This document shows, piece after piece, positions 391 to 55,000 of a DNA stretch of 64,000 nt (position 1 is its first letter; each line of letters starts with the position of its first letter). The position numbers and the translations under genes were made by a program. The notes under the pieces were generated by a model. It saw only the letters and a program-made list of their open reading frames with translations, was not told the DNA's origin and did no database searches. This DNA is from Sipunculus nudus (Eukaryota; Annelida; Sipuncula; Golfingiida; Sipunculidae), in NCBI GenBank assembly GCA_026874595.1, contig CM049307.1, positions 24,462,362-24,526,361 of the forward strand, read 5' to 3'.

Positions 391-1405
391 TTTAGCAAAT
401 CTGTGAGCTCTTGCAATGGTATTGCGTCGTCTGTCTTCCGTCGCATGTCATAGCTATCTCAAAAAGGGCAGGAGCTAGCATCACCAATTTTTTTGCAAAA
501 GATTTTTCATCTAAAAAAATTATCGGATTTTTAGTGAACCTGTGAGCTTATGCAATGTTGCTGCATCGTCCATCGTGTGTCAGTGCGTCGTGCGTCATCT
601 CTAGTTAACCATACCTATCTCAAAAATGGCAGGAGCTAGTATCACCAAATTTTTTGCAAATAATCAGTCATCAGTCATCATCTGTTTATTTTTTTTTCTA
701 ACTGCATTTTCTTAGATTTTTGCACAGCGTTTATACATCTTGGATAGCTTTCTCAATTTTGTGGCAGGTGGCGCCACCTACATTTATGTATACACTGCAG
801 ACATTCAGGCTTATATTTCAGGACTGGTTTGTCATATCCCCCTGAAATTTTGCATGTGTATAGATCTCATATAGCTCTTAATCATACACAAAAGTGGTGG
901 CGCCACCTGCCACCGTTTTTGCACAGCGTCCGTCTGTTTGTCTGCCATGGGCTAAAATCACTTACATCTCATTAGTGGTTTGACTTGTCTGCCTAAAATT
1001 GTGCATGTTTATACATCTTGGACAGCTTTCTGGATTTTGTGGTAGGTGGCACAACCGACATACACATTTCGGCTGCAGACTTCCAGACTATTATGCAACA
1101 CACCTCACTCTATCTCCCCATGCCACTCAATCCATGCCTCACTTCACCCGTCCCACTCTGATTTTGGCGGATACAAGTAGTTGCTTGTTGACTACCCGTA
1201 TTCTAGTTTTTGTGTTGTGTGCACTCATGCTAGAATTTCAGCAGTGATGTTTGTTTAATTGTTTCTTGTTCTAAGTGTTTAGTATTTGCATTGTTCATAT
1301 ACATGTTACACATGTTCTTGAAAAGTAATGGTCCAGCATTAAAGCATTATACCTGGTGTAATCTCATTGCACAGGTTTGCATTAGGCCTGTAGGCCTTGT
1401 TTTAG
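391..1405 (+). mobile_element. Family-B Helentron-like element, chimeric with a 5'-truncated family-A element
   Basis: The 5' end motif (GCAAATCTGTGAGCTCTTGC at 398; GTGAACCTGTGAGCTTATGC at 538) is present twice in tandem. The 3' end has CACAGGTTTGC at 1370-1380 and the hairpin AGGCCTGTAGGCCT at 1384-1397. Between them, about 725-1207, lies family-A material: GGTGGCGCCACC at about 767 and 894, then the family-A 3' signature TTTTGGCGGATAC, the GTAG...CTAC hairpin and CTAG at 1203-1206. The segment 1211-1405 is closely matched by 46729-46906. No protein is encoded. Confidence 0.65.
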
Positions 1406-1730
1406 AACTTCACTTTCTGTTTTCCACATCCTAGGACCTTTTCTAGGTTTTTCTCATAAATCCTTCTGGCAACCCCTCCTTTTCCAAAATCCTGGATCCA
1501 CCCGTGCCTTGTGTATATGGGCTAGGTATTAAGTTAGTACTTATGAACAGAATTTTAACCATTTGTGTTTAATACAAAATCAGTATTCTGAGTAGGGAAG
1601 GTTATAATGGACTTGTATGGCAATTATATATACAGTTATGAGGGATGGTTTTTAGGTTGATTTACTTGAGGGATATTTACTGCGATAATTTATTGTGATG
1701 AGGGCCTGCTTCAGCAGCATAATAGGACTA
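1406..1730. other. Intronic sequence, no gene seen
   Basis: AT-rich. It contains TTTTCCAAAATCCTGGATCC at about 1480, a short motif found again at about 60510 and therefore probably part of a dispersed repeat. Confidence 0.3.
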
Positions 1731-1875
1731 CAGTAAAACCCCACCTAAAGACCACCTCAGATTAAGGACCAGTTATTCACAGTCATGAATCTGTTTTGCA
1801 CTGTATTTAAGACCTAACATAGACGACCACCTTTATCAAAGTCCCCTTGGTGCTGGTAATTTTAGAGTTTTACTG
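1731..1875. mobile_element. Mariner-like MITE with TA target duplication
   Basis: The inverted ends are CAGTAAAAC (1731-1739) and GTTTTACTG (1867-1875), flanked on both sides by TA (1729-1730, 1876-1877). The 145-base interior has no coding capacity. TA duplication and the CAGT start fit Tc1/mariner-type MITEs. Related but degraded sequence (AAGGACCACC) appears near 11280. Confidence 0.6.
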
Positions 1876-1877
1876 TA

Positions 1878-3196: not shown

Positions 3197-3250
<54 letters not shown>

Positions 3251-6900: not shown

Positions 6901-6906
6901 ATATAA

Positions 6907-7183: not shown

Positions 7184-7299
7184 TAATAATAGATCTTCCA
7201 TGTTAAAAGATTTTAAGTAATAAAATATTAACTATTATAGATATTAACTATATAACTAATATCAGCTCCTAAAAATTATCAGCCACCAATGCACAATTA

Positions 7300-8744
7300 T
7301 TGTATCCGCCAAAACAGAGTTTTGCGGATACTATGTTTTCAGCCGCATGCCGCCGCCGCGGCGTAGGTGTCTGGAGAACTCCTCCGTAACCGCTGGGCAG
7401 AATTTTACGAAACTCGGGATTATGTTCGGGTCACATGTGAACTGCTGCGCCCGGATTTTGTTTTGACCTCTGACCTTTCCTCTGTGCTCTGCGTCCATCT
7501 GTGCGTCTGTTTTGACACATTAAACCACATATCTCGGGAACCGTTTGACCAATCCAGAAAAAAAATTTTTGCCCAAATGTAGCCCTTGGATAGCTTTATA
7601 ACATAAATAAAAAATGGTGGCGCCACCTGCAACCATTTTTGCACAGTGTCCATCTGTTCATCTGCCTTGGGTTAAAATCACTCATATCTCTGCATTGGTT
7701 TGACTTATCCACCTGAAATTTAGCATGTGTATACATCCTGGACAGCTTTCTTGATTTTATGACAGGTGGCGCCACCTACATCACATTTACGCTGCAGACA
7801 TCCAAGCTCATATATCAGGAACCGTTTGACCGATTGGGCCAAAATTTTGCATGTGTATAGATCTCACATAGTTCTTTATCATATGCAAAACTGGTGGCAC
7901 CACCTGCAACCATTTTGCACAGCGTCCGTCTGTTTGTCTGCCGTGGGATAAAATCACTCATATCTCTGCACTGGTTTGACTTATCTGTCTAAAATTTTGC
8001 AGGTTTATACATCTTGGATAGCTTTCTGGATTTTGTGGCAGGTGGCGCCACCCACATAAATGTTTATGCTGCAGACATCCAGGCTTATATCTCGGGAACC
8101 ATTTGACCTATTTGGCCAAAATTTTGACTGTGTATAGATCTCACATAGCTCGTTATCATACACAAATCTGGTGGAGCCACCTTGAACCATATTTGCACAG
8201 CGTCTGTCTGTTTGTCTGCCATTGGATAAAATCATTCATATCTCTGCACTGATTTGACTTATCTGCCTAAAATTTTGCAGGTTTATACATCTTGGATAGC
8301 TTTCTTGATTTTATGACAGGTGGCACCACCTACATTCATATTTACGCTGCAGACATCCAAGCTCATATCTCGGGAACCGTTTGGCCGATTGGGCCAAAAA
8401 TTTGCAAGTGTATAGATCTCATATAGCACTTTATTGTATGCAAAACTGGTGGTGCCACCTGGAACCATTTTTGCAAAGGGTCTGTCTGTTTGTCTGCCAT
8501 GGGATAAAATTACTCATATCTCGGCAGTGGTTTGACTTTTTGCATTTGTATACAATTTGATAGCTTTCTGGATTTTGTGGTAGGTGGCACAACCTACATA
8601 CACATTTCGGCTGCAGACATCCATGCTAATATGCAACACATCTCACTCTATTTCCCCTTGTTACTCAATCCATGCCTCACTTCACCCGTCCTACTCTGAT
8701 TTTTGCGGATACACGTAGTCGCTTGTTGACTACCGTATTCTAGT
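7300..8744 (+). mobile_element. Family-A Helentron-like element with internal tandem repeats (copy A1)
   Basis: The 5' end, GTATCCGCCAAAAC then AGAG then TTTTGCGGATAC, is a hairpin at 7302-7330. The 3' end carries a near match to its reverse complement (TTTTGCGGATAC, about 8701-8712), a GTAGTCG...GACTAC hairpin and CTAG at 8740-8743. The core has 278-280-base units marked by GGTGGCGCCACC-type palindromes near 7617, 7893, 8170 and 8450. This layout matches Helentron-associated elements (HINEs). Minus-strand open frames in it (8005-8235, 8283-8468) repeat the same pattern and are not genes. Confidence 0.75.
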
Positions 8745-9779: not shown

Positions 9780-9792
9780 GCATTTATAAAGG

Positions 9793-10968
9793 GATATCTG
9801 CCAAAATGAAGTATTGCGGATACTATGTTTTTGACTGGGTTCCACCGCGGCGGCAGCTTTCGTTTGTGGAGAACTCATCTGAGACTACTGGACTGGTTTT
9901 ACCGAAACTTACACCAATTATCAGGTCACATGTGAATTGGTGCCTAACCAGTTTTAATTGACCTCTGACCTTTCCTCTCTGCCCAGCGTCCATTTGTGCA
10001 TCTGTTTTCACACATAAACCCACATATCTCGGGAACCGTTTGACCGATCAGGAAATTTTTTTTGGTACAAATGTAGCCCTTGGATAGCTTTATAACATAC
10101 ACAAAAATGGTGGCACCACCTGCAACCATGTTTGAACAGTATCCATCTGTTTGTCTGCCTTGGGTTAAAATCACTCATATCTCCGAAGTGGTTTGGCTAA
10201 TTCACCTGAAATTTGACATGCATATACATCCTGGATAGCTTACTTGATTTTATGACAGGTGGCGCCACCTACATTCACGTTCACGCTGCAGACATCCATC
10301 CTTATATCTCCGTACTGGTTTGACGTATTTTCCCTGAAAATTTGCATGTGTATAGATATCACATAGCTCTTTATCATACGCAAAACTGGTGGCCCCATCT
10401 GCAACCATTTTTGCACAGCGTCTGTCTGTTTGTCTGCCGAGGGATAAAATCACTCATAACTCGCCAGTGGTTTGACACATCTGCCTAAAATTTTGCAGGT
10501 TTATACATCCTGGACAGCTTTCTTGATTTTATGACAGGTGGCGCTACCTACATTCTACTTTACGCTGCAGACATCCAAGCTCATATCTTGGGAACCGTTT
10601 GACCAATTGGGCCAAAATTTTGCATGTGTATAGATCTCATACACAAAACTGGAGGGGCCACCTGCAACCATTTTTGTGCAGCATCCATCTGTTTGTCTGC
10701 CTTGGGCTATAATCCATCATATCTCAATAGTGCATGGTTTGACTTATCTGCCTAAAATTTTGCGTGTTTATACATCTTGGTTAGCTTTCTGGATTTTTTT
10801 TAGCAGGTGGCGCCACCTACATACACATTTCGGCTGCAGACATCCATGCTAATATGCAACAAACCTCACTCTATTTCCCCTTGCCACTCAATCCATGCCT
10901 CACTTCACCCGTTCCACTCTGATTTTGGCGGATACACGTTGTCGCTTGCCGACTACCTGTTTTCTAGT
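9793..10968 (+). mobile_element. Family-A Helentron-like element (copy A2)
   Basis: It has a degraded 5' end (GATATCTGCCAAAA then TTGCGGATAC) and a well-kept 3' end: GATTTTGGCGGATAC at about 10921, GTCGCTTGCCGAC hairpin and CTAG at 10964-10967. The core palindromes are near 10110, 10257, 10389, 10538 and 10650. A 20-base direct repeat (GCATTTATAAAGGGATATCT) lies at 9780-9799 and 10978-10997, flanking the element. Confidence 0.7.
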
Positions 10969-10997
10969 TTTTCAAAGGCATTTATAAAGGGATATCT

Positions 10998-21700: not shown

Positions 21701-21935
21701 TAAATTGCTAAAAGCATCTTGAAAAATCGAAGGTTTCAATTCAGCTATTGAGATACATGTATATAGATATCATTGTTGCATCCTCTAAGCAACTGTTTTT
21801 GTGCGCTCACTTGCATGACAGTTCAACCGGATAATCATTTTTCGTGTGCTGAACTTAAAGTGTCATGGCTTGACGTACTGTGTGCTTCATTTTTTAACTG
21901 TATCAAATGAGGTTATGTGAAAGGGCAGGATATTT

Positions 21936-22024
<89 letters not shown>

Positions 22025-31000: not shown

Positions 31001-34000
31001 ATGATCAGTTTCTGCAGACTGGTGGCACCACCTGTATTTGTTCGGGGTTTTTTTTTTCAAATTTTTTTCTCTATTTTTCAGACCTATAAAAATATGAACA
31101 TCTGTTAACAGAGCACAAATCATAACAACTGGACCTAGAATGTTCATTCTTGACACACTGGGAGACCCATGGAAAGTCTCCATGGAAACTTGAAATTAGG
31201 TCTCTGTTACCCATATCTTTCCAGCTATAGGACTAGGAAGTATCCCTCAGAATAATGGACAATTTGATACAAAAGCTAAAGTTTCTGAACAACTAATGCA
31301 GGGATCACCATGATTCTTTGCATGGATATTGATTATTGAATGTTTCATCTGTTTCTGCAGACTGGTGGCACCACCTGTTTTTGTTCAGGTTTATTTTTAA
31401 CAAATTTTTTTCTCTATTTTTGAGACCTTTAAGGATGCTGTCATCTGTTAACGTGGCACAAATTGTAACAACAGGACTTAGAATCTTCATTCTTGTTATG
31501 CAAGGAGGCCCATGAAAAGTGTCTGTGGAAACCTGAAATTAGGTCTCTGTTACCCATATCTTTCAAGCTATAGGACTCGGAAGTATCCCTCAGAATAATG
31601 GAAAATTTGATACAAAAGGTGAAGTATCTGAACAACTAATGCAGAGTTCACCATGATTCTTTGCATGGATATTGACCATTAAGTGTTTTTATTAGTTCCT
31701 GCAGACTGGTGGAACCACCTGTATTTTTTTTAAAGTTTATGCATTTTTTCTCTATTTTTGAGATATAAATACAGTCACAATCTTGGCCTGTTGGTTAATC
31801 TGTTTGATGCTTCAGTTGAATGGGTATATACTACGATTCAGATGATAAAATTTCCTTTGGCAAATCTCTTCCTAGTCAGCTGAGCGTCATGACCCATGGG
31901 TCACTTGTTAAAATATTGTCTTATGTATGAAGTATAGAACTTCAGAACCCATATTTTGTAGACATTTATATCACTCCGCTCTAATGTGCAGCCATAGATT
32001 TCAAGGACCTGTGATTAGCTTTCCATGTGTTATCGACCATCAGGAGTTTAATGACAGTTATACATCTGACTGAGTCAGACTTCATGGCAGGTTAACGGTG
32101 TAGAATATCATGTGGGAAAAGAGACACTTCTTTACGGGGCCTGTGTATACAGTAAGAAGCCATTACAGATTAGATTAGAGCCTGGGTTATCCTGGTGCAA
32201 GCAACCACAGGGGTTGAAGGGGAGTGTAGCAAGTTCACATGATTCACGCGTCAAGTCGATCTAATTCCTTTTACCAGACAACGTAGTAACTTAGTTATCT
32301 GTAAAGAGAGGTTTCACATAAGGCATTCTTGATGTGTATACCAGTCTGGCCTACTGGTTCTGAAAACCATAGCGAGCAGCTTGTTCATTGGGCCACAGTT
32401 TCTGTCATGGCTGCTGAAACTAGTGCTGGAGCTCTGTATATATGGGTTACCCCACTTCAGTTAATGGTACATGTTTTACCTACAAGATTCTCCACTTAAC
32501 ATTGAGTTGTAGACACATGTACACTTGTTGTCCATTAATTATGGTATTTCTTTTGTTTGTTAAGTCATCAGGTCCGTTTTTTGCACACATTGTAACTATT
32601 TATTTGGGCTGTACTGTTTTCCCTGGTGAAGTACCTGCCACTCTTTTATGTCAGTCTGAATCAGCCAAACGTCAGGTTTCTTGTGACTAATAGTTAATGG
32701 ACATTGTTTTGCTGTCAGGTATGACTGTGCATATACTGATTGGTTGTAATTTGACTTAAAAAGCAACAAGACATCTGCTGGTTCACAGAGAGAAGTACAC
32801 AACATGGCATGTTCATAACTTCATATTAGCAATGTATTTTTCCTGCCTAACACTGGTAGCTGATGAATATTGTTATTAAAGGTCACATAATTCATTTGTT
32901 TGTTATTTTCAGGATATTATAAATTCCTTATGTCATTTTTACACGCAGTTGATAAGTTCATCAGTCCATTGCTGATGTCTCTACAATAAAAATTCTTTCA
33001 GTCCGTTGCTGATATCTCAATGATATTGATTCTTTCAGTCTATTGCTGATATCTCAATGATATTGACTCTATCAGTCCATTGCTGCTGTCTCAATGATAT
33101 TGACTTTTTAGCCCATTGCTTACGTCTTAATGATATAGACTCTATCATTCCTTTGCTAAAATCTCAATGATATTGATTCTATCAGTCCATTTCTGATATC
33201 TCAATGATATCTGTAGATTCTATAAGTCAATTGCTGATATCTCAATGATATAGACTTGATTAGTCCATCGCTGATATCTCAATGTATAGACTCAATCAGT
33301 CCATTGCTGATATCTCAATGATATAGATTCTTCTTGTCATTGTTGGGAACATACACAAACTTCATTATGTCTTAGCTGACAATCCACTCCTCAGGCAGTG
33401 GTTAGATGTTGCAGCCATTCTTTATCTCCTTCGCTGTAACCACTGCATGTAAAGCAAGATCTCTCAGCTTCCCCAAGAGGCTGGCAAAAGGGAAAAGAAT
33501 TGTAAACAAACCAGTGAGAGCCAGGTGTCATATTGTGCATCAAACTCCAAGTATCGAACCTGCGACACCCTGTACCACGTTGTAATATCACTCTCTCATT
33601 AGTCTGATTACAATTCTTGGCATTGTGTCAGCCCTGGTGTAGAAACCTTGAAAAAATTACTATGTAAAACATTGGTTGTTTCAAAGGAGATCTGGAACAA
33701 CTAACAGCCAACTATAAGGATTACCTCTCAGGAAAACTCTTCATGTCATTGAGGAAATGATGGTTGACATGAATTTAATGCATTTTATATCAGTGTTGAC
33801 TTCACTTTGATTCTTTATGTCATTGTACATGAATTTGTTATGTCACTGTTGACATTACATGATGAAATTTACTGTATTAGCTGGCACATATCATGATTAT
33901 TGATATATTGACATGATAATGATGAATTATCTATATTTTTTCACTACAGCTGTATGTGGAGGAGAAATAGAAAAATCTGAGGGACATCTGTCAAGTCCCA

Positions 34001-37000: not shown

Positions 37001-40000
37001 CCTAGGCTTTGATTGAGTGCTGTTTCACCAGAGCTAATGATCCTAGCTGGTTCTTCTGAAAGCAGTGGGACTCGGCAGAACAGGGGGCTAATTGAAGGGC
37101 ATTATACAAGTAAAACACTAGCACAAATCTAGCAGTGACTTTAACAGGTGTTTAATTATCAAATAGCAGTGGAACCAGCAGTAAATTAATCATTTTCATA
37201 GTCCTGTTCTCTGCAACAACCAATGAACAAGCCAACCCATAAACAACCCTTACAAAAGTGTGAAAGCAAACATATTGTTACACTCCAAAATAGGAGCATG
37301 GACTCTCCAGAACTTCAGGAATTTCAAATATTTTAAGAATTTTGATGTTTTCATATTTGAAAAAAAAAACACGGATTGTGAATGTCAGCGTTTGACATGA
37401 TGTCAGAGTTAAATCAATTATGTCATAATCAATAAAAGTGTAAGATAACAGTGTCTGAATTCTTTCAAGTGATTTTGATTTATTGATTCATGAGATAACA
37501 TACTTTGATGAAATATTACAATGCATCAAATTTCACATGTTACTTTAAACTTTTAGAAAAAGATATATTTTCTTCAGAAAATTCAGATATCCTTGGATTT
37601 TATAGACAATTTTATTTTCCACAGGTAGAAAACCATGACTCTTGTATATACGATTATCTGGAGGTTCGAGACGGCCACCAGGAAGACTCGCAACTTCTTG
37701 GAAAATTCTGTGGATATAAAATACCTGAAGATATTCAGTCTACATCCAACAAAATGTATGTCAAGTTTGTCTCAGATAGTTCTGTCAACAAAGCGGGTTT
37801 TGCAGCCATGTTTGTTAAAGGTATGTGTCTTATATTGTGATGTTAAATAACATCAGTAATTGAAACATTTGCCCTCCTAGCATCGTATATGCTATTATGT
37901 CTTGTAATATTTTTTTCAGGAGAGTTGTCCAATAACATTTTTTACATTTTTCAACAATTTGTACTCTTTTTTTTTTTTTCAAAAAAGGTTTTATACCTAA
38001 TTCGCAAATAATACTCGCATGTATAGCATATATGTAAGGCTTGTCCCAAAAATCGTTACTGACTTTTTAATCAATATTTATCATGAATGAAGGAAATGAA
38101 GAAATATCATCTTGTAAAAGTCAGATAGGGTGCAGATAAATTCTTAAATTTAGATATTTTAAATATTTTATATTTTACATATATTTTAGATATTATTGTA
38201 GATTGCAAATGATGAGCTGCAACAGTGTAGAATTAATTCCCCCATTGCCAAAGTATGCAGTCATTTGAATATCAAATTTTTTTAGATGACAAGATAGAAG
38301 ATAATAAGAGTTAACCAAATTACCCATCTGTGTCAAAATCTGCAGGGTAAAATAATCATGTGGCTTGAACTTCTTGCCTGTATAATGCAGTGAGTAATAT
38401 AATGTCTGTGGCTGGACATGAATTGATATAATCCTGGCATTGTTATTTCAGAGTTTAATATAAAGTCTGCGGCTGGACATGAATTGATATAATCCTGGCG
38501 TTGTTGTTTCAGAGTTTTTTATAGCGTCTGTGGCTGGACTAGACTGGCCCAGTCAATGAAATGGCTCTTAATTGTTGCCTCTGACAGAGAAACCCAACGT
38601 TCTCTCACTGTATCGCACTCTCTGACCCTCTTATAAATTTCATCCACTGGTAAACTTGGGCCGTACCGGACAGTCAGCGCCACACATTACCGCCACGCTA
38701 AACTTTAAGGTCTTTCCTAGTGACATAGGGAGTAATTATAGTGGTCTTTCCCAGAATCTTTTTTTCAAAACCAACATGGGTTATCCAGTAACCGCTTATT
38801 TAGGGCTTCTAGCTTGCTATTTATATACCCATTGGATCAGTCTTAATATTTTAAGGTCCTCAGCTATTTTGAGTACGGCAAGACTTTCAACACTATATAT
38901 AACCCTCAGACTCAGAGCCAGTGTGTCACCGTTTATCAGACCATCGCTTTTCAAGGCAGGCCGGTTTGAAAATGTATCCCTAGCTCAGCCAATCAGCGTG
39001 AGATATTCAGGACCACAAGCGACAAACGCAGTCATGAACCGGCTGGCTGAAATGATCACGGCGATCAGCGTGTTGGCAACTTAACAGGTGCAAGACTTTC
39101 AAGTGTAACTTGAACACAAACAAATACACAGTACAAAATAGATGTGACAGTGTCTACAATGCACTTTCATTTGGCCCATGGACCGTAGTGTTCAACAGCG
39201 GAGATATATCATAGGACACGAAGATCCATGTATGGACTTTCTGAAAACATGATTTCAGTGCAAATGTTACCAAGCGGGTTGAGCTGACTATTACCAGTGT
39301 GACCGCTGCTGGCGCCCACATAGCAACAGGAGCCGTGAAGGCCTGATATGCAAATGTGAGGGAATTGTCAGGAGCCTTGTGACACCCTAATATGTAAATA
39401 TCAGGGATTCACCATGCGAACATTACAGGGCTTTATTGATAAGAGCTGGTACTTAGTTACGTCTAACGGTACATGAAACAAGGTTTTATTTTAAGCATTT
39501 TAGTAGTAAACGTAAATACACTAAAGCCCAGGCAGGGATATGGCTGAACATGAATTGATATAATCCTTGCATTGTTTTTTCAGAGTTTAATATAATGTCT
39601 GTGGCTGGACATGAATTGATATAATTCTGCCTTTGTTGTTTCAGAGTTTGATGAATGCTCCACCAGTGACCACGGTTGCCATGACATATGTGTGAATACA
39701 TTAGGGGGATTCCGATGTGAATGTGGCATTGGCTATGAGCTTAAATCTGATGGAAAAACATGTGAAGGTAGGTATCGATATGGTCATTTCATCATGAAAA
39801 TACAAACTCAGTGAATTTCTGTCCATATGAGTTGTAGGATACTCATTGTAAATCTCATTTTGAGCCTGTTTAGTTTAAACAATCATTTGATGCAAAGGGA
39901 GTTTATATGATATTGATCGTTAGTGTGTACTCTGATTGGGATGGTTGCAAGGATTGGTTTTGAGAATATATAGCTTTTGGAGTATGATTATAGTCAATTT

Positions 40001-43000
40001 CCACTTTGGAAATGGGGGTGTGGGGGGCTGTCTATTGATTTTTAGCTCAGCTGACTGTAAGTCATCTGAGCTATAGTCTTGGTCCATTGTCCGTCGTCTG
40101 TCCGTCCGTCTGTCCGTCTATCCATCCGTTAGACACATTTTGAAACCGTTAGACCTATGAATAAAAAATTTGGCATACTATTAGATGTCCCCAAAATCTC
40201 CTACCATACCGAAAATTGGGTCAATATGACTTCGTTCCTTTGAGATATTTAGGAAAAACCTCAAATTTCCTTTAAAAACCTATTATCATGCTTCAGGACT
40301 GCCTAATATCAAAACCACTTATCTGTTTTTCTTAATATTTACCAGAAGTAATCTTCTATATATTTCCTATACACATGCCAGAAATTAAGTCCTTTAAATA
40401 TAATTTCTTGAAGTTATTGGCCTGAACATAATGGACTTTGCAAAAAATCAGGAAAATATTACTCACTTAACATGAAATATTTTGAAACTAGAGTATTTTC
40501 CCAAGTATATAACTATGTTTAATTAAGATTCAATTTTTTACCGAAAATTAGATCTGAATTTTGTAATTTTTTTAAGTTATTAACATAAAAATAAAATCAG
40601 TACCTTAAATTTTGCCCAACTTTGACCATGGCACTTTTTTCCTGTAAGTACCATTGATTTTATTTTCACAGCATGTAAACATAAATATTTAATTTGTTTA
40701 AATCTGAAATTTGAAAATAAAAGCTTGAAAATTAAGCTAGTTATTGATTTTTATTCTAGAGGCTCTATTGTAGTCATTTGCTTTGATTACAGATTACAGA
40801 TGCAGGGTCCCACTCCAGGTCACTGGAAGTCAGCTATGCCAGGGTTTCTGATTTGTAACAGTCACTGGGGGAGATCCCCTGCTGTGACTGGTGTACAGTT
40901 ATTCTCATATCACCACCCCAATCACCCCCCCCCCCCCCCCACAAACCCAACCCTCCAAGTGTTATGCAGTAATTGTTATTGTTTTCACTGTATCTCCTTA
41001 ATTGTAATGCTGTATCAACTCCGATATGCAAAAACTTTCCTTGAAAAAGTAATTCAAGGTTTAATCCAGAAGATGGAATGTTGTGTAATGTAGCATTTTT
41101 AAAGAAATCAATTTTCTTTTAAATGATTTGAACAAATATAATTGAACCCATCAGTATGCTTAAATTTATAAAATATGAAGCACATTAGGATAAATAAAGA
41201 CACAATTAAAAATTGTGAAATCTAAATCAAGTATTATTTTTAGATATTTATTGTTTTGCAGATTTAAAAGATATATTTTTGTGGTAAAAAATAAATAAAC
41301 ATTTGTATGCATGATGTGGTGTTATCTGACAAGATTGAGATTTGTGATGATGCAATATATGTTTTATTGGAAATGTATAGAAATATAAACTTAAATTTAA
41401 AAAAATTGTTGTGATAAAAAAATGAGGATTTAATACAAACATTTGTTCATTATTTTCCTGCCTCAGCAGAATTTGAGATCAGGCTTTGTTTGCTCTGTTT
41501 TATGCTGTTAATTAGTTATATTTCAACTGTATACATTTCATAAAAAAATACATATATATTTAATAATATATATTATACAAAAAATAGATTCAATTGAACA
41601 AATGTGTAAACTACTGAAATGTCAACAGTTAATCAAAAAACCAACTATTGATCATGGTAATAGTTCAGATCATTTGTTCACTAACTGCTTCAGTTTCAAC
41701 ATTAGGAAACACATGGTTAGGTCACAAAAAATTATTTGCAACAATTTCTTGCTCATCAATACAAACCAATCATATAAATCAACCATGGCCTTTATTATCT
41801 CTTTCTCTTACACTTTATCTCCATTTGATATTATTTTAGATTTTTACCTTCAAGGTCAACTTCAGCTGAGCACAGTGACCCATGGGTCCCTTGTTTTTTA
41901 TTAATTATGGAAACTTTCTGTTCATTATGTGACAATGACAAAATGTGTACTTTGTCAATAGAGAATAAAATGTTTAGTTAAAATCAATTAATCTGATGCT
42001 TTAATTAAATCATACTGGATACCTGTAAGTCTTCCTTGAATGATGGATGGTATCTTTTGGATGACACTTTAACTGATCATATTTCTGTAACTAACAGAAT
42101 TACATTAAATCAATATCTGTCACTTGGCATCCTTGACCAGATCACTTCAGTCAACATCACATGACAGAATAAACATTTTTTTTTTCAGTTATTCATTGTT
42201 TTACTCAAATAGTTTGTAAGTTATGGCCATGTTTTCCATCAATATATTTAACAGCTTACCTGATTGTTTGACTGATATGTTTCAGTATTTAATTGACTTT
42301 TTACAAAAATATATAAAAAAAAAACCTGATTGGGAGATGCATGCATACAGGAGGAACTAAAAAATGTCCATGTTAATGTTCAGTTTTATAATACTTGTTA
42401 ATGCATCACAAACAGACTTGGTGACTAATGTGACATGTGCTATTCATTAGACCTTTCCCCATATCAAATGATAAGAGAACTGGATCTTGTTAGGAAACAG
42501 CTGAGGGCAGATAATCATTGTATTTGTAAATGAACTAAACACTGTGCTAGGACTGCTGATAATCCAACAGAAATACCACTGAACTTGATATCACAAAGGG
42601 GCTGCAACCAGCAAAAGCCAGCCTCTGACAGATAATATGCCACTGGTTGTCTTTTTTTACCTCTCAATGCAGGAAATGTGGTTGTATTAATTTCACAGCC
42701 CAGAGTACCAATATTAATGCAGCCTCCTTTGAACAGACATATGCAATCTGTATGAACTTGTTTTCAGGCCTGTCCAATGTTTTGATGGGTTCAAAAGTTA
42801 TGTTGAGCCCTGTAGGGTGACAGATCCGTGAAGGATCGTGAAGGATCACAAACAGGTATACATACAGGTGTGAAAATCTCACCTTGTAAATTTACATCTG
42901 TTAGGCACCATTACTGTAATCAAAAGAATTACACTGAAACTGCTAATTGTTCTCATCATGTTCTATAAGCATATAAATATTATTAATTATAATTAATAAA

Positions 43001-46000
43001 TAGAAGCATAGCTGAAATAACTGGATTGCATCAGAATACTGGAATAGTCAATGGCATTGAAATAATGGTGAAACTCCATGTATAAACATTGAAGAGGTGT
43101 TATTGTTAAGGGTTACCTTGGCTTTTTAGCATGTTTATTATACCCTAACACTTGGAACTTGTTTGGTGTACATCTGGTCACAAGGACCTGTTCATACTTT
43201 TGTATGGATTTTATCTTACTTGTTTTGGCATAACAGCTTTCATTGAAACAGATCAAGATATGGTAATGTGAGAAGGATACAGTTCTTGGTTTTCTGTAGA
43301 AAAGAACTTGCATGGAACTAAAAGTTTCTATACAGTATCATAGTCCTAATCAACTACAATTATACATAAATACCCTTGAATCTTGATGGTTAAAAGTTTA
43401 AGCATTTTTAAATACAGTTGCTGTTGGGTCAAGGTCTCTGTAAAAAAAACTCAAATTGAAATAGGCCTGCTTAGGATCTGACACAGCAAACGTGATGTAC
43501 TCTTTTTATACCATATAATACCTCTACAAATATCTATATGTTAAAATGTCAAATGCTGGTTTTATAAAAAATTTTGTCATCTGAGAGGCACAATTTTGAT
43601 TGCTCATTATCTGTGACAAGAAGTGTGTAGCGCCTTCTGATATAAACACTTTCTGGTCAAAACCTCCCAAACAGTGTACTCGCCAGAACACAACCTAGGT
43701 TGCACTGAGACTAAGCTTGTACGAACATCATGTCTTATTAATGACTCCATCAGGTACTAGCACCTGCACATGCATCGCAAGGTGACTGCAAACAAGGTCA
43801 AAGCTGACTCATATCGGGCAGCTTAAAAAACCAATCGCCACTTGTCCAGCATCCAGAGAGGCTATTTGCTTTCCATAAAAACAGTAATTACAGCAGCGCA
43901 AGAGAGAGGGATATTGATTACATGACTACACCAGGTTATTAGGATTTGGATGGATTAATTTGCCCCAGCAACAATGGTTCTGGTATTGGCTGTGGCTGGC
44001 TTTTGTAAATAAATAATTATCTGAAGAAATGCCATTTTACAACTGCCCGCCACACCTGCTGTTGCCAGAACTGAACTACTGTAACGATATTGTTTTGACT
44101 CGCTGATTAAGCAAACCTCTGTAGGTTGTTATCGTGTTGGCAAGCTGATTCGGGTGTATGTTTCCCTTCACTGATTATCATGACATGGGCGCCATGTGTC
44201 ACTGTTGTGGAAAAAGCATATTTCACTGATCGAACTTCTGTTATTAGATCAGGTACTTGGCCTCCGACATCACTACAGTTGTTTTTGAAACATCTAACAC
44301 CCCATTACGTCATATTTATAACAGTTTCTGGTAAGAAGTCATAATTTTAATTCAGTGGAAAAAAGCAGATGTATAAACACATCACAAATAACAATTAACA
44401 GTGAGTAAGGGAAAATATTTATATATATGCTAAACATTTACGATTTTATATAACACTGGAATTTTTAGCGAACCTGTGAGCTTATGCAATGGTGCGGAGG
44501 CGTCCGTCGTGCGTCGTCTGTACGTTAACCATAGCTATCTCAAAAATGGCAGGAGCTAGCATCACCAAATTTTTTGCAAATAATCAGTCATCCAAAAAAC
44601 TATATCGGATATTGTTTATTTTTTTCTAACTGCATTTTCTTAGATTTTATAGGGAAAAAGCTAAAAAAACTTTAAAAATCTTCTTCTCCGAAACTGTCCA
44701 GCCAAATTGTCCAATATTTCACAGAAATGATCCCTGGAACAATCTTTCTCAAATTTGTTTGAATGGTTCCAGTTCGGTGATTTTTGGCCGAGATACAGGA
44801 GGTTGAACTTTGTTAACTGTGCAGAAAAGCATATTAAAATTTAAATCTCAGAAACGGCTGTAGCTATCATCACCAAATTTTATGCCAGTGTTGGTCACAT
44901 AGGTCATATCTGAAATTGAGGTATTGGTGGTGCCACCTGCATCGACCTTTTTGTACAGGGTCATCAGTGCCTGTATCACACTGAGGGCTACAAAAAACTT
45001 CTTCTCTGAAACCATATGACCACAATGTTTAATATCGCACAGAAATGATCCTAGTGTAGTGCTTTCTGAAGTTTGTTCAAATGGTCTCTTTTCAGTGACT
45101 TTTGGCTAAGTTATGGAAAGCTGAATTCAGTCATATGCCATAACAGCCCATTTTAGCTCAGTGGCTACAAAGATCTTCTTCTCGAAAACCACTGGACCAA
45201 ATTCTTAAATCTCACATATTAATTATCCTCAGATGTTGATAATTCAAGTTTGTTCAAATGGTTTTGGTTCAGTGCTTTTTGGCTGAGTTACGGGAAGCTG
45301 AACTAAGCCAGTTTGCTGTATCGTCCTATATGAGTCATAAACCTGCGAAACCTTTTTCGACTGATGCCACTGAAGCCAGTTTGTTAAATATTTTACAAGA
45401 ATATTTCCTACAATAATTCTTATAATAATTGTCATTAATGGTTCCACATGAATGATTTTTGGCTGAATTATGGAGATTGAATTTAGTCATTTTACCATAT
45501 ATGTTAGCTGTGTGATGCTGTTACATCTAGCCTGGCACCAATTTATCAGCATCTATTTCATCATGCCACTAGACATTTAGATTTCAGGTTATCTTTGGTT
45601 AATATTGACAAGAAAGTTTTTTTAAAAGCTTTTAAAAAATTTCGATTTATGATTTAAGTTATTCATCATACCAGGCAATGTTACAATCATGGATATTCAG
45701 CTCTCTGGCTATATAAAGACAACTGTAGGTGGATTATAAATTATTGGTATCCCTACTCGACTTAATTCAAGAATTTGCCATCAATGAGATATATCTGTAT
45801 TTTAATTTTGCATTAGGTATGCATCTGTAATAATTTTACATATATTCCTGATTTCTTTTTTATAAAAAGTCAGCTGAAAAGCATTTTGTATTGGGAAAAT
45901 AAATTTCAAAGTTTTTTCAAGTAGGGACCACTTTTGTGTTCAGATGGCAGCACTTGGTTTACCATTGGCAGATTGCCAGTGCCTTGATGTTGGCCATTAG

Positions 46001-49000
46001 CCAAGATGATGTCAGCTCCATAAATAGTTTTGGCACAGTGCCGGGATTGGAAGAAATGCAGCCAGCTATAGGTCAAGAGTTCACTCCGTGCAATAGCTGC
46101 ATTCTATTTATAGCTTTGGCAGACTGCTCACTGCATCATATTTGGCACCAAAGTTCAGCCTGAATCTATTTATAACTTTGGCAGACTGCCAACTGTGTCA
46201 GATTATGCAACTGGTAAAGAGTTCACTCAGTGCAGCCAGGTACAGGTCAAAAGTTCACTCAGTCTAGCCAGTTGCAGGTCAAGAGTTCACTCAGTGCAGT
46301 AGCTTGAGGCAACAATTTGTCACAGGTCACTGCCTTACTCACCTAAGTCTTGTCAGCCCAGTGCATCAACCTCTGGGGAAGTTTGATGTATTGGACTGAT
46401 ATTTTGACCTGTCTATGCGTCTTTGATGGTATTCTCATTTACAAGACAGGTGGTGCCACGTACATTGACTTTTGCACAGTGTATGTGCCTGCTTATTTCT
46501 ACAGAGGAATTTTATATATCAGCCTAAAATTGGGCTATTCATACATATCGAATAGCTTTGTCATATACAAGACTGGTGGTGCCGCCTACAATAATTTTTG
46601 CATAATTTGTGTCCCTGCTTATTTCTCAGGAGGGGTTTGATATATCAGTCTGAAAATTGGCATATGTGTATATCTCTGATAGCTTTGAAGTATACAAGAC
46701 TGGTGGTGCCAGCTACAATCATTTTCGTGTTGTGTGCACCCATGCCAGAATTTCAGCAATGATGTTTGTGTAACTGTTTCTTATTCAAAATGTTTAGTAC
46801 TTGCATTGTTCATATACATGAAAAGTAATGGTCCAGCATTGAAGCATTATACCTGGTGTAATTCCCAATGCACAGGTTCGCATTAGGCCTGTAGGCCTTG
46901 TTTTCCAATCAAATATTTGATATGCATGTATTGTACAGTGTGTGCAGGTTGTTTTAATCATGCCTGTGTGACTTTGAATGTAAAAATATCTTTGAATGTA
47001 AAAATAACTTCATGTGCTAATCTGCACTTTAGTAATAGTTGTCATTTCAGTCAATTACCTTTTTTCAATCAGATATTCAATATGCCTGTATAATACAATG
47101 TGTGCAAGTTTTTTTAATCAGGCTTCTGTGAATGCTAAGTATTTAGTTGTCATTGCAGGCAATTCCCTTTGTATTACTGTTTGTTATTGTATCCGCCAAA
47201 ACAGAGTTTTGCGGATACTATGTTTTCAGCTGGTCGCCGCCGCCGCCGCCGCCGCGTAGGTGTCCGGAGAACTCCTCCGTAACCGCTGGGCGGAATTTTC
47301 CGAAACCCGGGATTATGTTCGGGTCACATGTGAACTGCTGCGCCCCGATTTTGTTTTGACCTCTGACCTTTCCTCTGCGCTCTGCGTCCGTTTGTGCGTC
47401 TGTTTCCACACATAAACCCACATATCTCGGGAACCGTTTGACCGATCAGGAAAATTTTTTTGCACAAATGTAGCCCTCGGAGAGCTTTATAACATACACC
47501 AAACATGGTGGCGCCACCTGCAACCATGTTTGCACAGTGTCCATCTGTTCGTCTGCCTTGGGTTAAAATCACTCATATCTCTGCAGTGACTTGACTAATT
47601 CACCTGAAATTCGGCATGCGCAAACATCCTGGATAGCTTTTCTGATTTTATGACAGGTGGCGCCACCTACATTCACGTTGAGGCTGCAGACATCCAAGCT
47701 CATATCTCGGGAACCGTTTGACCGATCAGGAAAATTCTTTTGCACAAATGTAGCCCTCGGAGAGCTTTATAACATACACCAAAAATGGTGGCGCCACCTG
47801 CAACCATGTTTGCACAGTGTCCATCTGTTCGTCTGCCTTTGGTTAAAATCACTCATATCTCTGCAGTGACTTGACTAATTCACCTGAAATTTGGCATGCG
47901 TATACATCCTGGATAGCTTATCTGATTTTATGACAGGTGGCGCCATCTACATTCACGTTTACGCTGCAGACATCCAAGCTCATATCTCGGGAACCGTTTG
48001 ACCGATCAGGAAAATTCTTTTGCACAAATGTAGCCCTTGGAGAGCTTTATAACATACACCAAAAATGGTGCCGCTACCTGCAACCATGTTTGTACAGTGT
48101 CCATCTGTTTGTCTGCCTTGGGTTAAAATCACTCATATCTCTGCAGTGACTTGACTAATTCACCTGAAATTTGGCATGCGTATACATCCTGGATAGCTTT
48201 TCTGATTTTATGACAGGTGGCGCCACCTACATTCATGTTTACGCTGCAGACATCCAAGCTCATATCTCAGGAACCGTTTGATTGATCAGGAAAATTTTTT
48301 TGCACAAATGTAGCCCTTGGAGAGCTTTATAACATACACAAAAAATGGTGGCGCCACCTGCAACCATGTTTGCACAGTGTCCAGCTGTTCGTCTGCCTTG
48401 GGTTAAAATCACTCATATCTCTGCAGTGGTTTGACTAATTCACCTGAAATTCTGCATGCTTATACATCCTGGATAGCTTTTCTGATTTTATGACAGGTGG
48501 CGCCACCTACAATCAAGTTTACGCTGCAGACATCCAAGCTCATATCTAGGGAACCGTTTGACCAATTGGGCCAAAATTTTGCATGTGTATAGTTCTCACA
48601 AAGCTCTTTATCATACGCTAAACTGGTGGCGCCACCTGCAACCCTTTTTTGCACAGCGTCCATCTGTTTGTCTGCCAAGGGCAAAAATCACTCATATACA
48701 ATATAGTGGTTTGACTTATCTGCCTTAAATTTTGCATATGTATACAACTTGGACGGCTTTCTGGATTTTTTGGTAGGTAGCGCAACCTACATACACAATT
48801 TGGCTGCAGACATCCATGCTGATATGCAACACTTCACCCGTTCCACTCTGATTTAGGCGGATACAAGTAGTCGCTTGTCGACTACCCGTATTCTAGTTAA
48901 AAATGATCATGTCCAGACCCATATTATTGATGGGCAGAATAATTTATTATTACAGTATAATATTACAGATAAAGGATACGTTCAGTTGTTATATTAACAG

Positions 49001-52000
49001 ATGGGATTCTTAGCCATGATGATGATGTTACTGGAAGGCATAACTGACATTTCTGTATGTCAAGCCATTTACAACAGATATGGTAATTATAAGGGCTGCA
49101 TGTGTATTACCTTTAAAGTATTACCAGTAATTACTTCATGCTAAAGCTTTGAAATTGTGTTAAAGTGATCCATTAAAAATTAAAATTTCATGAAATTCAA
49201 ATTCTTAGAATTGTATTTATAATGTATCAGTAGATGGTTTATTTTATATTATCAACATAGCTACCATTAGACCTTTATGAGGAAAGAAATTAATTACATA
49301 TAATGATGTAAATAATATATGTAATTGTAAATAAGGGGAGCTTTAAGTAATGCAGTGTGCCCTGGTAAATATATTCTGCATTAGAGAGAATGCATGATTT
49401 AAAATTTTTTTCTATTAATGGAGGCCAGTTTGAAATTGTATCCTTCAAAAGCAATTGTTTGTTGAGCTCAAGAATTAATTGCCCACAAATTCCATAAAAC
49501 CAATAACCGCACAAATAATGATGAATCCTGTTAAAAAATGAATACATATATGTGGTTTACTGGGCAAGTCTGTGGAATTTCATTCCAGGGTGTGTAAAAA
49601 ACTAGTCAAATTTTTACCCCTATTAACATACACATCAAACAAACCATACAGATTAGTGATATGTTATTGTGAAGCACTGGTTGGTTATTTACCAGTATCA
49701 AAGACTCCCAGAGGAAATGCTATAGGTGTGTACAAAGTACAAGTTTAGATCAGGAAATTAACTGAAACCACTGTGTAATGAATTCACACTGAGACGGCCT
49801 TAATTCATTACATTAATTTACACAGAATTCCAGCATTCCAATAAAGAATACGGTACTAACAATTGTACAAATTTTAAATTCACCGTAGGTGTAAGATCAC
49901 TATAGGTTTTCCATATTACAATGATAATTCATGCCTGTAAGGAGTGTTTGTTGTTCATTCTAGCTGTTAGACCTATAGGATGTTCTTACATAGCATCTAG
50001 ACAGATCCTGCTCAAAATCTCCATGGAAAACTGACTTTTTACAATGGTTTCCTTTATTCTGCAAACTGATGTGAAAATAAAATACTGATCACACTTGAAA
50101 GATGCACAGTGTTCTATAAAATCAGACGAAATCTGGTTCACCAGTTTACTAATCAGTTATGTAGGACTCATGTGTGGACTTGGACTCGAGTCCAGACTCA
50201 TCCACTTTTTCAAGGACTTGGATTCAGACTTTGACTTGGGTCCTGGACTGGGCTTGTACTCAGACTTGGAAGTAAGGACTTGAGAAATCAGGCCAAGTCC
50301 ATCTCAAGTCCAGTAGAAAAGAAAACTCTGTCACATATTATATAAAGATTGTGCACACGGGTGAACTACTAACAGAATATTACAAGAAAATAAGAATTGA
50401 AATAACTCTTTTAAGGAGAAGATTTGTATTGAATTCAGACTTGGACTCGAGTTCCAAATGATTCAGATTTGATGAAGGTGGACTTGGACTCAGACCTCAA
50501 GGACTTGGACTCGAGTGGCCTTGTCTCAGACTTGCACTCAGACTCTGATGGTGTGGACTTGACTACATCATTGCTATGAGGTGAAAATAAAATTCCGATC
50601 ACACTTAAAAGATGCACACTTGCCAGTAATCCATAAGTTCATATGAAATCTGGTTCACCAGATTTCTTAATGGTATGTGGTTTTAAACTGTGACTATTTC
50701 TAACCCTAGATGCCTGTGGCGGAGAGATTCGCGAGGCCAACGGAACCATCCAGAGTCCGTCCTTCCCTGACTTGTACCCTCCTCAGAAAACCTGCATGTG
50801 GAGGATTGTAGCCCCGGAACAATATCGCATCACCATCAACTTCACACATTTTGATCTTGAAGGAAACAATGTGAGTACAAATATAAGTATATATATGTAT
50901 ACTGTAATTTATAGATACAGTGAAGTCCTGTCTGATGAAAACCTCACTTTCACGACATGCAACCCCACTAAGACGACTAATATTTTAGGTCTGGGACTAA
51001 TGTGATTTAAAAATCCTACATAACATCAAATTTCTCAAGAATTGGTCGTCTTGTTCTGGTATTTGACATGAGTGAATATCTTGGAATTATAGTTTAGCCT
51101 AAGCTGACATCTCCTTCACTCCCTCTAATACAAGATTATAAGTTGTGTTTCCCATCAACAGAGCAGCGTAAGTAAAGGTTTCAGTGGACATTCTCTTCTT
51201 TGCTTATTTAAGATTTCACATTTAGTGTTATTGTAAGGATTGATATGCTAAAGCATTTTTATTCTCAGAAAAACATTGAATTTGCTTTTAAAGCTGAGAA
51301 AGTTTAGGTCTGATTTGTTAATAAGTTGCATTTTGGCACCTATGTGTTGTGCTGCCATCTGCTGAGCTTTGCAGAAACTAACATTGACTCAAAATGCACT
51401 GAGTGAAGACATGGGTCTTCAATAACTCACCATCATACATTGTATATATTCATAGCCTTTTTATTAATCAATAAACCTACATGTTTTGAGAATGTTTTAG
51501 TGTGTAATAATTGGAAGAACCATTTTGTATTCAATACAAAATATTATTATTTTATATTATGGTCAAAGTGTCTGCTCTTCATCAGGAAATAAAAATATTT
51601 AAAAAAAATGCAAGGCCATATTTTGGGGTTCCATTACTGGTTCAGTTTTCAGCTCAGCTGATGGAAAGTCATCTGAGCTATAGCGATCACTATTGTCCTT
51701 TGTCCTTTGTCCGTCGGGCTGACCTCCTTCCGTTAACAGAGCACAATTCATTTCTCTGTTTTTGATACCTTCAAAGAGCTGTCATCTGTTAACAGGGCAC
51801 AGATCATTTCTGTTTGACCTAGAATCTTTTAACTTGACATCCAGGGAGGTCCATGGAAAGTCTTCATGGAACTTGAAATTAGGTTTCTGTTATCCATAAC
51901 CTCTGAGCTATGGGGCTCCAAAGTACCCCCAGAATAATGGAAAATTTGATACAAATCTCATGTATCTGAACAACTATTGCATTGATCACAATGATTCTTT

Positions 52001-55000
52001 GCATGCATATTGATCATGGAGTCTTTCATCAGTTCCTATAGACTTTTGGTGCCACCTGGATTTTTTTTCCAATTTATACACGTTTTTTTTTAAATTTTGG
52101 ACACCACTCTGTGAGTCATGTTGCCCATTGTTCAATTTCCCTGAATTCAGCTGAGCATCCTGGCCCATTGGCCACACTGGTTCAGAGATGAATAAATAGA
52201 AATTAGCATGCAAAATGTTGAATGGAAGGTACCAAGGATAGTACTTTTAAAGTATAACAGAACACTTATTAATTAATTTTGCAGTGCATGAATATTCATG
52301 ATTATCATTACCATATATTGATGTTAAGGTATAAAGATATGAATAAAGAAATAGAAGTACATCATAATGACTGATAAATGTGCAAATTAAATTACATCTG
52401 CTTCATAATTTAATAGACTATTATATTGCCTTGGCCCATGTTCCACGCTATAAGTTCCATTGAAATTATACAGGAGTTGGTTTAAGAAATTGGTTGAGTA
52501 GTTTGTTTTGGAAATAGGTTGATTGAGTGGTTGGTTTTGGAAATTGGTTGACTTAGCAGTCAGTTACAATGTTGGTATAGAAGTTGGTTTTGGAAAATGG
52601 TTGATTAGGTGGTTTTGGAAATTGGTTTATTGAGTAGTTAGTTTTGGAAATTGGTCGATTGAGTGGTTGGCTTTGGAAATTCGCTGATTGAGTAGTTGGT
52701 TTAGGAAATTGGTTGACTGAGCAGTTATTTAAGGAAATTGGTTGAGTGGTTGGTTGTCGAAATTGTCATGTTCCTATATGTACACTTACCTGTTGCAGCA
52801 AGACTGTGCATATGACCACTTGGAAGTAAAGAGCGAGAAGGAGACGGGAGAGAAGATCCTGCATGGTTCATTCTGTGGGTCTCAGTTACCCGCTACCATC
52901 ACGTCACACTCCAACATCCTCCTCATCAATTTTGTATCTGATGGTTCAGTGCAGAAGCCCGGCTTCTCTGCTGTCTTTTTCACAGGTAGGCCAAACTTCA
53001 CCATCTGTATTTGCATCTTTTATGCATATTGAAAACTACATTTCCTCTGATGGGTCCAGCAGTTAAGATATGTTGTGCTTAACAGACTTGCACTTCAGTT
53101 CTTGTTACCATGGTGACACCTTAAATTGATATATTACAAAAGCTAAACCTGTTTACAAATGGATTTCTGTTTTTTTTTTCTTTTTTTTTTTGCCCTGGAT
53201 ATGCCTTTGTTGTTTTCTTATATGAAAGTATATAGGGTTATATCCTTTGATGGCAAAATTAGATGATTTTTTCGTATTTGATTCTGTCACACTAAAAGAT
53301 TACATGAACTCCTGGTAAATATTTTATATGTACTTCTTTCAGGGTTAGAATTATGGGAATGTAGGGACTCAAGTGCTTCTTTCAGCAATACTTTGGCCCA
53401 AGGATATAATTGGTGGTTAGCAGTTTCAGATGTAGTAGATGATGACAGGTCAAGTCCAGTCAAAAGCACAGAGAAGAAAACACTGTTGTAGATACACTTG
53501 TTGATTTTAATCCAGGATTCCAAAGTCTACAAAGATGTGACTTTGTGGGAAGTGCTATAGTTCATGTTAACTATGAGCTAATTACTCTGGTAGCCTATTT
53601 CCTCTATGTCCGGACTCACCACATGCATGTCGGAAGGTGTTCTCACCTATCAGCACCCCTCTATGTAGGGATCACAATTAAGCAGGCAGTAATCTACAGT
53701 GCCCTAACTGTCTACCCCTTTTAACTAATTTGTATTACCTAACCGGCTGGGACAGTATCTCCGGTCATGTTGTGATACATCATTAGTGATATCTACCAGA
53801 ATCCGCTAACAAAGCTGCGTTCATGCTTTTATAATTAATTGGGCTTGTGACTGGCGTGACCACCTGGCCTGTCATAGTGTTGCCTTTGATAACTAATCCC
53901 CCCACCCATACTGTGGTAAGTACAGCATTTGTGACATTCCCTTACTGCTACTAATATATAAAGTTCAATGCAGAATTTAAATCTTAATCTATAAACTATA
54001 ATGATACTACTCCTACTTTATGTGACACTCCTACTATATAGCCATTAATATTTCTATGATTACACAAATAATGCACATGAAATGAAAATGGATAGTACAA
54101 TAATAATAATAATAATAATAATAAAAATAATAGTAGTAATAATCATGAAACTGACATTGAAGTGGATAGTACCTGCTTGCGTTTTGTATGTATGGACTTT
54201 ACAAGGTGTCATCACTGTGTATACAGTTATATTCATATACACTGTAGTAGATGGCATATATTAAATTGATTGAAATTACTCCTGTTTTGAAACTTTAACT
54301 CTGTCTACAAGAAACTGAATATATGACTGATGTTAAAAGACTAAAGAAACTTATCTCACATCATTTTAATCATTTTCATAACACTGACCAGAAGATACTT
54401 TGCAGTCAATCACTGGTCATCATCAAACAAGCATCTCTCCTGATTGGAAATTTAGCCAAGGCACAAATTATTTTGTTTCAGTGTCTTCCAGTGTTCTTAT
54501 ATGTGTCTTTCATGAGCCAAATGGAATAATATGGGTTACTTTTACCAGTAGTAAGATGAACTTAAAATATGTGCAGACATATTCCATTAAAAAGATATCC
54601 ACCATGTGGACAAGTCAACCAAATTTCTTTTCATATTTTTTTCTTTTGCATTTCAGAATTTCTTTCTTTTAACATCTTCATGCAATTCCCCATTTCTACA
54701 TACAGTTCCATATTTACTTATGCTCTGCCATTCTCTCTCTCTTCCTTTCTCTCTCTCTATGTTTATATATATGTAATGGAATATTGCTTTACTAAATGTT
54801 TGTTTACAGACAAGGATGAGTGTGCGGTGAACAACGGTGGTTGTCAGCACATCTGCACCAACACTGTGGGTAGCTACCAGTGTGGGTGTCACAATGGGTA
54901 CATGTTACATGAAAATCAACATGATTGCAAGGAAGGTTAGTCTCTGTAAAAATGGCCTGTACTAAATGTCTGCACAAGTATTGTGTGTGAGGATTCTGTA

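Follow-up and report, generated by a model that had tools for sequence, protein, structure and literature searches.

Three interspersed repeat families of Sipunculus nudus with Helentron-type ends: probable non-autonomous rolling-circle elements with partly common cores

What kind of mobile element has accumulated in a 64,000-nucleotide (nt) stretch of the genome of the sipunculan Sipunculus nudus (GenBank assembly GCA_026874595.1, contig CM049307.1, forward strand; C2:24462362-24526361 in the contig numbering used here)? The stretch, which is called the window below, holds eight copies of three repeat families, A, B and C, all of them on the + strand between 389 and 52175. An initial annotation, made from the letters alone, had attributed to these families a single Helentron-like end architecture. 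That assignment of the ends has held up: their anatomy, insertion into T-rich DNA, the constancy of the ends in copies across the genome and the presence of Helentron proteins in the same genome (1.4265 Gb in 153 contigs were searched) together make it highly probable (roughly 93%, by our estimate) that A, B and C are non-autonomous rolling-circle elements of the Helitron2/Helentron type, or Helentron-associated elements (HINEs).

The end plan is the same in the three families: the 5' end recurs as its reverse complement 19-33 nt before the 3' terminus, where it adjoins a 3' palindrome followed by a short tail that runs into T-rich DNA. Such asymmetric terminal inverted repeats (ATIRs), terminal on the 5' side and subterminal on the 3' side, characterize HINEs. 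Their strength was gauged as the best ungapped complementarity between the first 40 and the last 80 nt of each copy, relative to 1000 shuffles of those last 80 nt. The observed score is reached by 1, 4 and 0 shuffles for A copies 1 to 3, by none for B copy 2, and by 1, 3 and 3 for C copies 1 to 3; the ATIR of B copy 1 is weak (35 shuffles when its second 5' end is used, 134 for the first). A palindrome after the 3' ATIR, likewise a HINE feature, is carried by the window copies; the A and B 3' ends fetched from elsewhere in the genome have it too, altered by point changes.

A copy 1 (7302-8743, exact 5' end at 7302) displays the plan of its family: a 5' hairpin, GTATCCGCCAAAA-CAGAG-TTTTGCGGATAC, then a (GCC)n stretch, a core of ~130/150-nt monomers, each with the palindrome GGTGGCGCCACC at its end, and the 3' ATIR, hairpin and CTAG. 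A copy 3 (47189-48896) is complete, with an exact 5' end at 47189; A copy 2 (9795-10967) has a shortened 5' end (at ~9795, 5 mismatches in 33 nt). The terminal pair originally quoted for A is present at its places but is a composite, with at least one mismatch in every window A copy. The 5' end had also been said to fold on itself in A and C. It does so in A copies 1 and 3 (z -7.4 and -7.0) and in C copies 1 to 3 (z -5.8, -6.9 and -3.4), but not in A copy 2 (z -1.1); among 37 A copies compared, the majority 5' hairpin is exact in 21.

B copy 2 (44462-46900, exact 5' end at 44468) reads TTTTTAGCGAACCTGTG ... CACAGGTTCGC, then the palindrome AGGCCTGTAGGCCT and CTTG. B copy 1 (389-1399) is more complicated: it has tandem 5' ends (389 and 528; degenerate at 391) and a B 3' end at 1369-1399, and in place of its B core it has an A core with a complete A 3' end (718-1206). 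A head-to-tail B-B junction is also present at another locus of the genome, L028. C copy 1 (28977-31907) begins with a T5-AGC 5' hairpin (5' end at 28983), continues with a GTCC/GTCY microsatellite and 340-nt core repeats, and finishes with a 12-nt ATIR, GACCCATGGGTC and CTTG. The C ends of copy 2 (40039-41893; 5' end at 40045) enclose a 1.8-kb interior without core repeats, whose two longest open frames match nothing in Pfam. C copy 3 (51646-52175; 5' end at 51652) is short, with the hairpin GGCCCATTGGCC and an altered 3' tail. A fourth exact GCTCAGCTGA occurs at 26143 without the remainder of the end plan. In a C subfamily found elsewhere (L095, L102, L085) the 5' hairpin is AGCTCAGC-TGACT-TTC-AGTCA-T-GCTGAGCT; in it two positions that do not match each other in the main form can pair again, a possible compensating change.

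The three families are dispersed over the genome. The 5' end patterns (30 nt for A, 26 nt for B, 33 nt with a free 3-nt loop for C), which leave out degenerate copies, occur 3,049 times for A (1,555 on + and 1,494 on -), 422 times for B (203 and 219) and 21,691 times for C (10,691 and 11,000); the reversed patterns, searched as a control, have no match for any family. Boundaries were read from aligned copies. For A, a 501-nt query yielded 6,828 candidates, of which the best 40, the window's own included, were scored; 39 genome stretches, each represented by the copy with the best 5' match, and the three window copies make 42, of which 39 passed the mismatch limits at both ends (L016, L040 and the window copy at 7302 were left out on account of the 3' pattern; L045, with an altered 5' end, was kept). 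For C and B, 19 and 20 of 40 scored copies were used; C 3' ends come from the window and a few loci, and paired B and C flanks from the window copies. Collected and aligned in this way, as the annotation had recommended, the copies have fixed ends whose boundaries lie at T-runs. On the right, all 39 A copies are followed by TT, and 37 of them end in exact CTAG (the remaining two in CTTG and CTAT); on the left, a T stands five nt ahead of the first G in 37 of 39, mostly with (A/T)ATT between. TTTTT precedes the 5' AG in 18 of 19 C copies. The B right boundary is CTTG|T in 20 of 20 and CTTG|TT in 19 of 20. Insertion at TT or T-runs, seen here at the A right, B right and C left boundaries, is also expected of HINEs. 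Nested copies supply paralogous empty sites. L034 has an A element set cleanly into a T-run within a C core. In B copy 1, TTTTTGTGTTGTG comes directly after the A end CTAG (CTAG|TTTTTGTG), and the corresponding sequence of B copy 2 is CATTTTCGTGTTGTG (CATTTTCGTG).

Variant ends were also encountered. C-like 3' ends at L023 finish in CTAG rather than CTTG, so that neither terminal tetranucleotide, A-type or C-type, belongs strictly to one family. At 26 places, C7:47872170 among them, A-type 5' hairpins have another continuation, mostly TAGTAA; they were considered as a possible partner of A, and L125, the one that was read, has the A core and represents an A subfamily ~85% identical to A.

The A end invites the thought that these are derivatives of canonical Helitron1 elements, since CTAG conforms to the CTRR rule and the hairpin, which CCGTATTCTAG follows, lies ~10 nt inside. 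That origin is very improbable. The CTAG rule holds in A only; B and two of the three window C copies end in CTTG, and the flank is TT at T-runs rather than the A^T target of Helitron1. Helitron1 elements, which start with 5'-TC, have no 5' hairpin; A and C have one, and the combination of a hairpin made by the 5' ATIR with a subterminal 3' ATIR is described as a Helitron2 feature in the excerpted account of Bao and Jurka 2013 (PMC3627910).

The points that weigh against a Helentron origin lie in the folds, in target duplications at a few copies, and in the search for an autonomous partner. The B 5' end has no hairpin (z -0.3 to -1.8), and the folding of the 3' palindromes, which are clear by eye but short, hardly exceeds that of shuffles if at all (z -2.4 to 0.0). 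Target-like duplications, named at the outset as grounds for giving up the Helentron assignment, are absent from most of the copies tested and present at three, two of the 39 A copies and one C copy. A 20-nt direct repeat, GCATTTATAAAGGGATATCT, borders A copy 2: the left repeat is at 9780-9799 (its last nt overlapping the element start) and the right one, after 10 extra nt, at 10978-10997, both on +; none of 300 random flank pairs reaches 20, and the longest repeat among 1,482 mismatched pairs is 14. C copy 3 abuts a 10-nt repeat, ACTGGTTCAG, on both sides (51636-51645 and 52176-52185, +), a length reached by 2 of 300 random pairs in a test of nine elements. The third, at the A copy of L028, is 12 nt long; one of the 1,482 pairs reaches 12 or more.

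Duplicated flanks, together with inverted ends, small size and lack of coding capacity, are what miniature inverted-repeat transposable elements (MITEs) of cut-and-paste DNA transposons would show, the placement of the inverted repeat inside the 3' end then being a coincidence. This explanation is even less probable than the preceding one. The duplications have no fixed length (10, 12 and 20 nt); 37 of 39 A copies have none beyond chance, and among the window B and C copies C copy 3 alone has one; nested sites suggest that complete copies insert without duplicating the target; and the asymmetric ends, the 3' palindrome, the tandem core and the T-run target tell against it as well. Variable duplications are, moreover, described for Helitron2, so that finding them does not refute a Helentron reading: according to excerpts from Bao and Jurka 2013 (PMC3627910), copies with an exact 5' end lack duplications, whereas ~7-19 nt are duplicated at the majority of the remaining copies, above all at those truncated on the 5' side. 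A copy 2, which lacks the first 5' nucleotides and carries 10 extra 3' nt, fits this rule; C copy 3, with its altered 3' tail, perhaps does; the L028 copy, which looks complete, does not.

The search for autonomous Helentrons with the same ends, which the annotation had proposed, found the proteins and joined none of them to an A, B or C end. The Helitron_like_N domain (PF14214) is present at at least 143 places of the genome (150 of 195 candidates were scored) and at none in 14 control genomes. Seven of the places lie in open frames of 2,229-2,426 amino acids (aa); a 1,764-aa part of one frame contains OTU, Helitron_like_N, PIF1 and Exo_endo_phos domains, and this set of OTU, Rep, PIF1 and endonuclease is the Helentron combination in the portions of Thomas et al. 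2014 (PMC4067079) consulted. Because the coding elements of this genome carry the endonuclease, they are of the Helentron type, unlike the algal Helitron2. No autonomous element with A, B or C ends was found in 20 Rep-helicase (RepHel) loci of 3.4-3.6 kb each, with ~1.5 kb per side, in scans allowing roughly 30-40% mismatches. The flanks of two Helentron groups, scanned at the same mismatch level, have no A, B or C end, the groups' own ends lying beyond the part covered, and a search for Helentron protein traces in the window and 47 loci gave 0 tblastn matches at 1e-3. Scored copies within 20 kb of 125 of the 143 RepHel places number 0 of 40 for A, 0 of 40 for B and 1 of 40 for C; the 18 places omitted from this count are mostly second pieces of listed places, and four of them lie 17-42 kb from a listed place. 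The single C copy is 13 kb away from its RepHel gene; it sits within the core of another C element and was rejected as a link to a partner. Since no element with A, B or C ends was found, the autonomous partner is one that we infer. That several Helentron lineages are active is a conjecture: the first 215 nt of the A copies have a median divergence of 4.2% from the majority (1.0-9.0%, 37 copies), and open frames exist, but no frame could be linked to A, B or C ends; the A family may be older than 4.2% implies, because the copies measured are the best-scoring ones. Two Helentron copies, C7:31578448 and C11:50385293 (L071, L073, L075-L080), are 99.7% identical over 3.6 kb. Their frame, open for 2,235 aa in the C11 copy, starts amid a tandem repeat of ~69 nt and has further repeats downstream. 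Homology between the two still runs at the edges over ~15.8 kb, which implies a very long element or a segmental duplication.

The three families had been presented as unrelated; their cores indicate otherwise. A and B have a core monomer in common (0 of 500 shuffles for either A monomer type, in a comparison that left out the palindrome and all sequence 3' of it), GGTGGCGCCACC occurs in the cores of all three, and B copy 1 holds the 3' half of an A element. With the same trimming, the relation of A to C core monomers is marginal (3 and 91 of 500 shuffles), and B and C monomers show no homology (375 of 500). When monomers are compared in the register of the palindrome, one A type matches C at 0.34, versus 0.26 off register (rank 1 of 47), and the other ranks 38; the high in-register identities of the palindrome itself are biased, because the units were picked by it. 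The 5' regions of B are like those of C copies 1 and 2 (z 4.9 to 8.6) and not that of C copy 3 (z -0.6 to 2.6), a likeness that comes partly from a common GTC microsatellite. The termini of B and C are nearly equal (T5-AGC ... CTTG|TT); A ends CTAG|TT. At two mismatches or fewer, 39 of 40 window occurrences of GGTGGCGCCACC lie inside elements. A role as a selected site was considered and dropped, there being no unusual conservation within families (C rank 108 of 327 windows; A ranks 20 and 233 of 268, the latter probably affected by an alignment edge), and the palindrome is accordingly read as a sign of common descent of the monomer.

Related core monomers in A and B would also be expected if the core arrays were captured satellite DNA and the end architecture incidental, and excerpts of the oyster HINE study (PMC7492417) propose such a transfer, but this is about as improbable as a MITE origin: the ends are fixed in dozens of copies at any length between 0.88 and 3.33 kb (the range of the 39 A copies), and C copy 2 lacks a core between its C ends. 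One further identity was tried for the palindrome, a binding site of CTCF, judged by what we take to be its motif; a 9-nt core fits 38 places (35 in elements) and a longer consensus fits none, which leaves a weak lead. Part of the palindrome string is printed as a silkworm guide target and as a guide RNA in a paper on alpha-globin locus insulators; among the literature matches listed for the end and palindrome strings there is no transposon paper. On viral contigs, two end patterns have 0 matches and the core pattern 3, about chance level by our own estimate.

How these passengers might move can be put together from their ends. The Rep-helicase-endonuclease of an autonomous Helentron would act in trans and nick the 5' end, and one strand of the element would be peeled off. 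Peeling would stop once the 5' and 3' ATIRs pair with each other, replacing the 5' hairpin, which is the termination step that Bao and Jurka propose. The calculated ATIR duplex is stronger than the 5' fold in A copies 1 and 3 and in C copies 1 to 3 (for A copy 3, -18.4 versus -10.9), a relation compatible with that proposal that does not in itself test it. The freed strand would then be joined into a T-run, normally without target duplication. The families themselves swap core modules through nesting and recombination. Which Helentron moves A, B and C, how termination proceeds and whether the families are now active are matters on which we can only infer from sequence. If the assignment is right, three repeat families are settled as Helentron passengers with exact ends and an exchange of modules between them, one of the families having more than 21,000 matching 5' ends.

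Comparison with known systems, made from excerpts of the papers concerned, points in the same direction. The Cg_HINE elements of Crassostrea gigas (PMC7492417), compared by description and not by sequence, have a subterminal inverted repeat (subTIR) of 11-12 nt with an inverted repeat nearby, a GTCY-type microsatellite (here in C), a tandem core, a 3' subTIR with palindrome and a T-rich target; the excerpts give no indication of target duplications, unlike the two A copies and one C copy here. DINE-1/HINE-Mo and Helentrons, in the excerpted text of PMC4067079, have a 12-15-nt subTIR near the 5' end, a subterminal 3' copy, a 3' palindrome, a TT target and T-run boundaries; their 3' subTIR is placed ~38-60 nt from the 3' end, rather than 19-33 nt. 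Helitron2, as excerpted from PMC3627910, shares an ATIR of 8-15 nt, a 5' hairpin made by the ATIR, a 3' ATIR just before a hairpin, insertion after TTTT, and variable duplications of ~7-19 nt mainly in 5'-truncated copies; it differs in coming from an alga rather than an animal, and B lacks its 5' hairpin.

That all eight window elements point one way raises a question about the target strand. T-runs of at least 4 outside the window elements favor + by 53:47, and at these odds all eight elements would be on + with a probability of 0.007, a figure that belongs to a pattern noticed afterwards, among neighbors within 52 kb that may not be independent. Strand order was followed on chromosome C1, over the first 100 places of each pattern; the p values quoted come from many tests and are uncorrected. 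Between 0.096 and 3.18 Mb, where C density (at 0.10-1.15 Mb) is 3.5 times that of the genome, 85 of 100 C ends share the - strand, and the strand changes 10 times where 25.5 switches are expected (p at the 1e-5 floor). In the same left-end region, 10 of 12 A copies have the strand of the nearest C. Every A copy as far as 1.08 Mb is on -, those at 1.23 and 1.40 Mb are on +, and C changes to + there as well, so that the two families switch together near 1.15-1.25 Mb. The sole exact B of the region is on -. C makes 6 switches versus 10.0 expected between 1.5 and 3.2 Mb (p 0.026), and A and C merged make 69 versus 83.3 beyond 3.2 Mb (p 0.016). Of 47 A-C pairs no more than 50 kb apart over the ~30 Mb listed, 35 have a common strand (p 0.009), and other-family ends or cores are on the strand of A in 8 of 10 A stretches (hand count, p 0.11).

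Against coherence stand the fading of the C signal on thinning (p is 3e-4 when one place per 10 kb is retained, 0.014 for a spacing of 20 kb and 0.10 for one of at least 50 kb) and a series of weaker results on C1: 22 of 33 A-C pairs within 50 kb beyond 3.2 Mb (p 0.083), A alone beyond 1.5 Mb (44 switches versus 44.9, p 0.47), A over all 100 places (p 0.25), and the C GTA-loop subset (p 0.17; 0.23 beyond 3.2 Mb). Strand coherence beyond the left end of C1 is weak. To our knowledge, the way in which eukaryotic rolling-circle transposons choose their target strand is unsettled, and none of the matches listed in a literature search bears, by title and abstract, on Helitron strand bias. We raise as a conjecture, and an unlikely one, that Helentron insertions are strand-coherent over tens of kb to ~1 Mb, families with unlike ends taking one orientation, as if the circle joined single-stranded DNA of one strand only; the target strand would then be the lagging-strand template at a replication fork or, in a gene under transcription, the strand that is exposed. 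A precedent is bacterial, the strand-specific insertion of IS200/IS605 elements into single-stranded DNA (PMC5371812, from excerpts). The clustering may come instead from transcription, from segmental duplication at the chromosome end, or from self-reinforcement, the elements being T-rich on their own strand (runs of at least 7 inside window elements are 20 of T versus 6 of A) and inserting into T-runs. If the conjecture were true, repeat orientation would preserve a record of the direction of forks or of transcription in an animal genome, and if coherence held genome-wide, tens of thousands of insertions would allow the choice of target strand to be asked about.

The elements had been placed in the introns of one gene. 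Open frames on + that match domains identify host exons at 37499-37840 (CUB), 54566-54940 (EGF-type) and 57859-58368 (CUB). C copy 2, B copy 2, A copy 3 and C copy 3 do lie between the first two of these exons, at ~37.6 and ~54.8 kb, but B copy 1, A copies 1 and 2 and C copy 1 are upstream of the first exon detected. The window also contains minisatellites at 32922-33332 (37-nt units), 52469-52775 (~29-nt units) and 54919-55621 (39-nt units), the last of which keeps a frame open for 114-147 codons beside the EGF exon.

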